A DNA stretch of 64,000 nt from Rhodospirillales bacterium. GTDB taxonomy: Bacteria > Pseudomonadota > Alphaproteobacteria > ATCC43930 > CGMCC-115725. Below, piece after piece: positions 2 to 1,551 of the stretch. The stretch is from contig DAHUYF010000079.1 of NCBI GenBank assembly GCA_027315365.1, forward strand, positions 1-64,000, written 5' to 3'. Below the pieces are notes generated by a model that saw only the letters and a program-made list of their open reading frames with translations, was not told where the DNA came from and did not search any database. The stretch's first letter is position 1; every line of letters begins with the position of its first letter. Position numbers and translations under genes: made by a program.

Positions 2-904
2 CTACTCGCTGCGCGCGTGCTCCTCCGGAGCGGCGGCGGGTTTGCCGCTCTGCGCCTCGAGATAGGCGATGATGTCCTGCCGCGTCTCGGCGTCGTCGAT
101 GCTCATCGGCATCAGCGAGCCCGGCACCAGGCGCTGCGGCCCGGCCAGCCATTTGTCGAGCGTCGCCGTCGACCAGACGATGCCGGAGTCGAGCAGCGGC
201 TTGGAATAGGGATACCCCACGACGCTGGCGGCGCGGCGGCCGACCACGCCGGCGAGCGGCGGTCCGACCAGGGCGCGGTCGAGCTGATGGCAGCCGGCGC
301 AACGCGAGGCGAAGAGCTTGCCGCCGGCCTCGGCATCGGGCGCCGCATGGTCGAAGCGGGTCAGGTCCTCCGCGCCCTCGGGACGCTCCGAGGCGAAGAA
401 GGTGTAGGACAGGGTGATGGTATCGACGTCGCGCGTCGTCGGGTCGGCGGCGAGCTGCGGGTCGACGAAGAAATCGACCGGCATCTCGACCCGCTGATGC
501 GCGCCGAGGCGCTCCTCGGTGAAGCAGAAGCACTGGATCTTCTTGAAGTAGATGCCGGCCTTGAGCGGCGTCACGTTGAAGGTGGCGTGCCCGACATAGT
601 CCCGCGCCGAGAGATTCTCGGCGGTGAAGAAGGCCAGGGTGTCCTGGCCGAGATGAAGCTGCACCTCGCGCTGCGCCGGCTCGAAGCGCCAGGGCAGGCC
701 GGGCGCGACATTGGTCGTGAAGCGCACGGTGACGACGCGCGAGGATTGACCGGCGGTGTCGGAGGCGACGCGCTGGGTTGCGCCGCCATAGCCGGTGGCG
801 GCGCAGAACAGGCGGTAGAAGGTCGCCGAAAAGGAGACCAGCCCGATCATGGTGCCGAGCATGATGCCGAGCAGCGCCACGACCACGAGATTTTTTCGCC
901 GCAT
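2..904 (-). CDS. ctaG: Cox11/CtaG copper chaperone fused to a C-terminal cytochrome c domain
   Basis: The protein has 300 residues. Residues 1-175 are Cox11, which delivers copper to the CuB site of cytochrome c oxidase. There is an N-terminal membrane helix at about 6-28, the conserved FYRLFCAATGYGG stretch at 29-41, and the copper-binding pair C125-F-C127. Residues 190-285 form a class I cytochrome c domain with the haem motif C202-A-G-C205-H206 and a probable axial methionine in GSLMPM (M265 or M267). Cox11 alone is normally about 190-200 residues, so the haem domain is an extra module. It would lie on the same periplasmic side as the copper site. The gene follows an SCO gene 41 bases upstream on the same strand, which supports a role in oxidase assembly. 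The fusion is seen directly; its function is inferred. Confidence 0.93.
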   Translation of the reverse strand: MRRKNLVVVALLGIMLGTMIGLVSFSATFYRLFCAATGYGGATQRVASDTAGQSSRVVTVRFTTNVAPGLPWRFEPAQREVQLHLGQDTLAFFTAENLSARDYVGHATFNVTPLKAGIYFKKIQCFCFTEERLGAHQRVEMPVDFFVDPQLAADPTTRDVDTITLSYTFFASERPEGAEDLTRFDHAAPDAEAGGKLFASRCAGCHQLDRALVGPPLAGVVGRRAASVVGYPYSKPLLDSGIVWSTATLDKWLAGPQRLVPGSLMPMSIDDAETRQDIIAYLEAQSGKPAAAPEEHARSE

Positions 905-945: not shown

Positions 946-1551
946 TCACGAGGCCTGGCCGAGCAGCGGCCGAAGCTGCTCGGCGAGGCCCGCGGCCGGC
1001 GTGTCGCCGGCGAGAAGCCGAACGAACTTGCCTTCGGGGTTCATCACATAGATGAACGAGCTGTGATCGACGAGATAGTCCTTGCCGTCCTCGGTATGGG
1101 GCGCGACATAGACCTTGTATTCCTTCGCCACCGCGCTGATCTGCTCGGGCGAGCCGCTGAGCCCGACGATCCGGGGATCGAAGGCCTTGACGTACTCGCC
1201 CATCACCTTGGGCGTGTCGCGGCGCGGATCGACGGTGATGAACAGCACCTGCAGCCTGTCGGCCGCCGGTCCCAGCTTGGCGAGCGCGCCGGCGATGTTG
1301 CCGAGCGCGGTCGGACAGGCGTCGGGACAGAAGGTATAGCCGAAATAGACCAGCAGAAATTTGCCGGGATAGCTGCGGTCGGTGACCGCCTTGCCGTCAC
1401 CGCCGATAAGGGTGAAGGGTCCGCCGAGCGAGGCCGTGGCGAGGATCGAGCCGCTGTCGCGCTCGGCGACCAGCAGCGTCGTCGTCGCGGCGCCGCCCAG
1501 GATCAGCGCGCCCAGGCCGATGCCGAGGAGCAGGCGCAGGCGCGGCGTCAT
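946..1551 (-). CDS. SCO1/SenC family copper-binding thioredoxin-like protein
   Basis: The 201-residue protein begins with one membrane anchor (about 7-27) followed by a thioredoxin-fold domain. The copper ligands of the SCO family are present: C75-PDA-C79 and H163 in VDHSS. SCO proteins load or reduce the CuA site of cytochrome oxidase subunit II on the periplasmic side of the membrane. The ctaG-cytochrome c fusion follows 41 bases downstream, so the two probably form an oxidase-assembly operon. No oxidase structural gene lies inside the window. The start ATG at 1551 overlaps a 14-base perfect palindrome. Confidence 0.94.
   Translation of the reverse strand: MTPRLRLLLGIGLGALILGGAATTTLLVAERDSGSILATASLGGPFTLIGGDGKAVTDRSYPGKFLLVYFGYTFCPDACPTALGNIAGALAKLGPAADRLQVLFITVDPRRDTPKVMGEYVKAFDPRIVGLSGSPEQISAVAKEYKVYVAPHTEDGKDYLVDHSSFIYVMNPEGKFVRLLAGDTPAAGLAEQLRPLLGQAS

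Follow-up and report, generated by a model that had tools for sequence, protein, structure and literature searches.

A candidate transferable CuB-insertion chaperone in which Cox11 is fused to a class I cytochrome c

We identified in a Rhodospirillales bacterium (GCA_027315365.1, here G000) a gene that joins a complete Cox11 copper chaperone to a class I cytochrome c in one open frame. It lies in the window, the 64,000-nucleotide stretch G000:C12:1-64000 that we analysed. We read the protein most readily as a transferable chaperone for CuB insertion that has a haem tethered to it and can take the place of Cox11, and the fusion appears to have replaced ordinary Cox11 in at least three lineages. 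The gene, its parts and its upstream neighbour are as follows:

2..904, minus strand: Cox11-cytochrome c fusion gene, 300 aa, ATG to TAG (stop at 2-4), a single open frame
833..901, minus strand: N-terminal membrane-anchor helix, residues 2-24, from the structure model
803..805, minus strand: Cys34, the membrane-proximal third cysteine conserved in Cox11, unchanged in 27 fused and 59 aligned Cox11 proteins
395..823, minus strand: Cox11/CtaG domain, residues 28-170 (PF04442; Foldseek match to 1so9)
521..532, minus strand: CFCF copper-binding motif, residues 125-128, invariant
335..385, minus strand: inter-domain linker, residues 174-190, from near-constant spacing and the model
56..334, minus strand: class I cytochrome c domain, residues 191-283 (PF00034; PDB matches)
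287..301, minus strand: CxxCH haem-attachment motif, residues 202-206, invariant
110..112, minus strand: Met265, presumed distal haem ligand by comparison with class I cytochromes c, invariant
946..1551, minus strand: SCO1/SenC copper chaperone gene (PF02630), directly upstream of the fusion

Family score, the CFCF motif with the third cysteine, a predicted single N-terminal helix and the predicted fold all place the first part of the protein in Cox11/CtaG. In Pfam the fusion protein matches PF04442 (CtaG_Cox11) with E 3.5e-54 and 183.3 bits against a curated cut-off of 25, and its first part scores 192 bits against the cut-off of 162 of the NCBIfam Cox11 equivalog NF003465; Pfam gives no match of the protein to PF09678 (Caa3_CtaG, a multi-helix membrane protein). 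The second part belongs to the class I cytochromes c by its score (PF00034, Cytochrom_C: E 4e-9, 38.1 bits against a curated cut-off of 21.3), its CxxCH motif and its distal Met. The first-pass annotation of this DNA had described one uninterrupted frame holding a full Cox11 and a class I cytochrome c, with ligands at C125, C127, C202, C205 and H206 and an SCO gene alongside. The frame and both Pfam domains bear this out; the five residues lie where it placed them and, with C34 and M265, are invariant in 27/27 fused proteins, and SCO is found directly upstream on the same strand, across a gap of 41 bp. The contig ends 1 base past the fusion's stop codon, so the downstream side of the gene is out of view; its orthologues terminate near the same point (291-330 aa).

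Among pairs with at least about 75% identity, median dN/dS is 0.09 in the Cox11 part and 0.13 in the cytochrome part, values that point to purifying selection on both. The distance from CFCF to CxxCH is 74 residues in 25 of the 27 fused proteins, 73 in one and 71 in one, and we argue from this near-constant spacing that the two parts work together. A structure model built from 59 sequences (mean pLDDT 85.8), which superseded a poorer first model with pLDDT 70, has an ordered and fairly confident linker. Foldseek searches with this model returned apoCox11 (1so9, E 1.5e-13) and class I cytochromes c, including Paracoccus c552 (rmsd 1.0) and cytochrome cH.

A tree of 100 Cox11 domains gathers the 27 fused proteins into a single clade (support 98/83, from a bootstrap that had not fully settled) that excludes the Cox11 encoded in the oxidase operons of these genomes, and so shows a single origin for the fusion. 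The CxxCH motif occurs in 0 of 74 sampled unfused Cox11 proteins. We also considered independent fusions in other lineages and found none among the matches listed in our class and phylum samples, which weak Cox11 matches could escape. The nearest unfused relative, sister to all fusions, is the Cox11 of Rhodovibrio sodomensis (L095:2435-3094). Its tail, PEGAKDLKRLDEPKQPDQDGG, is similar to the fusion linker, so either the linker is older than the fusion or the haem domain was lost in Rhodovibrio sodomensis.

A search of the window's whole family found the fusion in 11 of 39 genomes; in the 10 further genomes the orthologues are full-length, with 53-63% identity over both domains. From a sample of 385 genomes across the class, the matches listed added just G363, which belongs to another family and has a copy broken by two unread bases. 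The matches listed from a phylum sample of 398 genomes added one carrier, G517, whose distant genus has the fusion in 15 of 242 genomes, with two copies in G1005. It is also encoded on the conjugative plasmid pBAL398.3 of Rhodopseudomonas sp. BAL398 (NZ_CP133114.1), as WP_152647780.1, which is annotated just as 'cytochrome c oxidase assembly protein', and a scan of named genomes found at least two named carriers, both unclassified MAGs. These family, distant-genus and plasmid occurrences make the fusion rare, patchy and mobile, and mark it as an accessory, horizontally spread gene that has moved between distant bacteria. It often stands alongside ordinary Cox11, as in G001, G011, G023 and G024 of the family and in many genomes of the distant genus.

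The first-pass annotation had proposed mapping C-terminal CxxCH domains among Cox11 homologues, and held that a stop codon or frameshift near residue 185, or two separate genes in close relatives, would undo the fusion. Carriers are now mapped in the family, the distant genus and the plasmid; close relatives have the same fusion and not two genes, and independent orthologues are free of such an interruption except in G934. The copy in that genome of the distant genus (L200:9080-10228) has an internal TGA between its two parts, and is possibly a pseudogene, a sequencing error or a gene split into two frames. Horizontal spread, coexistence with ordinary Cox11 and the copper-island location described below were all unforeseen in that annotation.

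The fusion lies outside the oxidase operon, often after SCO and/or PCuAC. Within the family it follows SCO in the window, SCO and PCuAC in G001, G002 and G010, and PCuAC in G007, G019, G023 and G027, among otherwise unrelated genes; in genus g9 neither adjoins it. SCO is again a neighbour on pBAL398.3, where the genes run multicopper oxidase, cytochrome c, DUF411, DsbE, TlpA, YCF48, cytochrome c, SCO, PCuAC and fusion, followed by DsbA, CcdA and then CusB/CusA and arsenic genes. One of the two G1005 copies sits within a gene set resembling this island. The copper-handling island common to the plasmid (L189:2490-22957) and G1005 (L191:2704-15146) comprises a multicopper oxidase, DUF411, DsbE, TlpA, SCO, PCuAC, the fusion, DsbA, a trypsin-like peptidase and a methyltransferase, and no oxidase genes lie near the fusion in either. 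The other distant-genus copies that we examined lie away from these copper genes, with varied neighbours, and most stand alone. No copper-handling island surrounds the fusion in the window's family.

G000 has one copy of Cox11, the fusion. One of its aa3-type operons, on G000:C80, reads cox1 - ctaB - 44-aa ORF - 27-codon stub - cox3, with the ORF and stub at L103:1245-1500; in two genomes of the same genus, G001 and G003, ctaG is intact at the exact site of the stub. The stub starts with ATGACC, as does ctaG of G003, and at its end 25 of 30 positions match the sequence around the ctaG stop of G003, with a score of 20 where 500 shuffles reached at most 18; against ctaG of G001 the score is within the range of its shuffles. 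Together these comparisons are suggestive of a deletion scar of ctaG. We looked for an ordinary ctaG elsewhere in G000 and rejected it, since there is only one Cox11 and the contiguous operon site is the stub; an unassembled copy is conceivable. Haem-copper oxidase subunit I is matched five times in G000, on contigs C57, C36, C61, C80 and C21; the C80 match is truncated at the start of the contig, and contig C57 finishes shortly after its operon's cox3.

Ordinary ctaG is likewise missing from G007 and G010, two genomes of other genera with a completeness rating of 100%, and the fusion is their sole Cox11. We found no Caa3_CtaG in G000, G007 or G010, and rejected it as a substitute CuB factor there. 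A ctaB-cox3 (aa3) operon is in view in 28 family members, and 21 of these have ctaG in it; the seven operons that lack ctaG fall into the three fusion carriers without Caa3_CtaG and four genomes with Caa3_CtaG and no fusion. Every one of the three genomes that have neither ordinary Cox11 nor Caa3_CtaG therefore has the fusion (hypergeometric 0.011 if genomes are independent, with no correction for relatedness). The two-way association of fusion and ctaG loss in the family is weak, with three carriers and four non-carriers lacking any ctaG, and only the three-factor pattern of fusion, ctaG and Caa3_CtaG is informative.

The four non-carriers (G008, G013, G020 and G022; aa3 operons L125, L128, L106 and L119) have a cox1-ctaB-cox3 order, no Cox11 at all, and Caa3_CtaG in 4/4. 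Most Cox11-bearing relatives in the family have no Caa3_CtaG, and the two look largely interchangeable as CuB factors in this family. An incomplete assembly with no match to the aa3 cox3, G028, has both the fusion and Caa3_CtaG. G023 has two aa3 operons, L112 (C438) and L045 (C102), one with ctaG and one without, and its unfused Cox11 is among the longest branches of the tree, which might reflect contamination or rapid evolution.

CuB depends on Cox11, a membrane-anchored dimer in which Cu(I) sits between CFCF motifs (PMC6696091, PMC9145763); the chaperone's transfer of copper to CuB is not well understood (PMC6696091). The third cysteine of human COX11, near the membrane, participates in copper transfer, and the redox and copper state of that protein depends on its partners (PMC9232578). 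By position, Cys34 of the fusion may be the counterpart of human COX11 C121 (PMC9232578). We propose that the Cox11 part of the fusion has its anchor in the cytoplasmic membrane and its soluble domain on the periplasmic side; since the anchor is N-terminal, the C-terminal cytochrome would be periplasmic as well. Attachment of haem c is itself periplasmic, and the CxxCH motif would be loaded there. The Cox11 part would take up Cu(I), probably from the SCO or PCuAC encoded alongside, and, like ordinary Cox11, insert it into aa3 oxidase subunit I. Because the operon's ctaG is gone in the window's organism, the fusion would there perform CuB insertion unaided.

The cytochrome c, held at a nearly fixed distance, would most likely exchange electrons at the assembly site; its ferrous haem might, for example, convert chaperone-bound Cu(II) to Cu(I). 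With a potential typically near +250 mV, class I cytochromes c are able to reduce Cu(II) at a Cu(I)-favouring site but are poor disulfide reductants. Thiol reduction by the fusion's haem is unlikely because a c-type haem is too oxidising, and we prefer exchange with copper, at modest confidence, because the potential suits Cu(II) and not a disulfide.

That the fusion acts in CuB assembly we consider probable, and the tie to oxidase assembly is strengthened by the genomes that have no ctaG in their aa3 operon and no Cox11 but the fusion. Electron exchange between its haem and the copper site is a tentative suggestion, with odds somewhat below even, and the proposal as a whole, a haem-bearing Cox11 for CuB insertion with the electron role included, is put forward just as tentatively. 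We are a little more hesitant about the fullest version, a redox-active metallochaperone that couples CuB delivery to electron transfer and whose portable gene lets some hosts drop ordinary Cox11. Against the proposal count the island copies without oxidase genes, the lone copies in the distant genus and the extent of the replacement pattern, which is three genomes. Many carriers also have ordinary Cox11, and the fusion may therefore have another role in them.

The first-pass annotation had suggested two uses for the haem, supplying electrons for copper reduction and docking the chaperone to the oxidase, and both remain plausible. In the docking reading, the cytochrome part could bind the cytochrome c site of subunit II and place the Cox11 part above subunit I, so that the assembly of CuA and CuB is coordinated and redox chemistry is secondary. 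Such an arm would fit a domain closest in sequence and fold to oxidase-interacting cytochromes (such as Paracoccus c552 and cytochrome cH), a linker of near-fixed length, and the stable interaction of human COX11 with COX2 and SCO1/SCO2 (PMC9232578). However, pure docking would not require the haem ligands, which are fully conserved, Met265 included, and the calculated charge of the cytochrome domain varies among orthologues (pI 5.7 to 9.7); we regard docking as rather unlikely. The cytochrome part could also be a membrane-anchored donor to the finished oxidase, simply kept close by the fusion and with no role in copper delivery, and Paracoccus c552, among its closest folds, is itself a membrane-anchored cytochrome. 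Cytochrome c is likewise carried on subunit II of caa3 oxidases (PMC6696091), yet carriers have several further class I cytochromes c in their genomes, an assembly factor leaves the enzyme and small amounts of it suffice, and the fusion's neighbours are copper chaperones and not oxidase subunits. We judge it unlikely that the haem feeds electrons to the finished oxidase, and slightly less likely again that this is the protein's whole function.

The plasmid and island copies raise a further reading, in which the fusion works with SCO, PCuAC, DsbA, CcdA and the multicopper oxidase in periplasmic copper redox chemistry or tolerance and, at least in those copies, not in oxidase assembly. The pBAL398.3 island, with DUF411 and CusA/CusB besides, and its G1005 counterpart have no oxidase genes nearby, as such a copper-stress module would predict, but the window's family has no island, and some of its genomes have an aa3 operon with no Cox11 other than the fusion. 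Since SCO, PCuAC and Cox11 all serve in oxidase assembly, the island may instead protect that process under metal stress, and we think a stress module improbable. An assembly or sequencing artefact, or a decaying gene, might be suspected from the position at the extreme contig end and the internal TGA in G934. Twenty-six other fused proteins from independent genomes, with low dN/dS in both parts, invariant ligands and near-constant spacing, make this exceedingly improbable; the independent orthologues rule out misassembly, and the Cox11-cytochrome c fusion is a real gene.

A natural haem carrier tied to a CuB chaperone would give a direct handle on copper delivery to the buried CuB site, and mutants in its haem ligands could tell whether electrons matter in CuB insertion. 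In the plasmid, oxidase assembly factors and copper-handling genes are seen to travel together on a conjugative element.

Our literature search, which covered few subscription papers, found no published description of a Cox11 fused to a cytochrome. By every feature tested the protein is a member of Cox11/CtaG (PF04442; NF003465), with the complete domain, membrane anchor, CFCF motif, third cysteine and 1so9 fold, plus a class I cytochrome c. It differs from other members in this C-terminal addition, in its place outside the oxidase operon beside SCO/PCuAC and in its horizontal spread. With class I cytochromes c such as Paracoccus c552 and Methylobacterium cytochrome cH it has in common the fold, CxxCH and distal Met; those proteins are free or merely membrane-anchored carriers, whereas the anchor here is a copper chaperone. 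Subunit II of caa3-type oxidases also tethers a cytochrome c C-terminally to a periplasmic copper-binding domain (PMC6696091). That protein is a structural, electron-carrying subunit, while the partner in the fusion is an assembly factor. The closest precedent, with the same design principle, is a Sco-cytochrome c fusion of Pseudomonas putida, reportedly described by Banci et al. in 2011 (J Biol Inorg Chem 16:391), in which an oxidase-assembly copper chaperone is joined to cytochrome c. There the chaperone is Sco, with a thioredoxin fold and acting on CuA, whereas here it is Cox11, with an immunoglobulin-like fold and acting on CuB, and the two chaperone parts have no direct homology.
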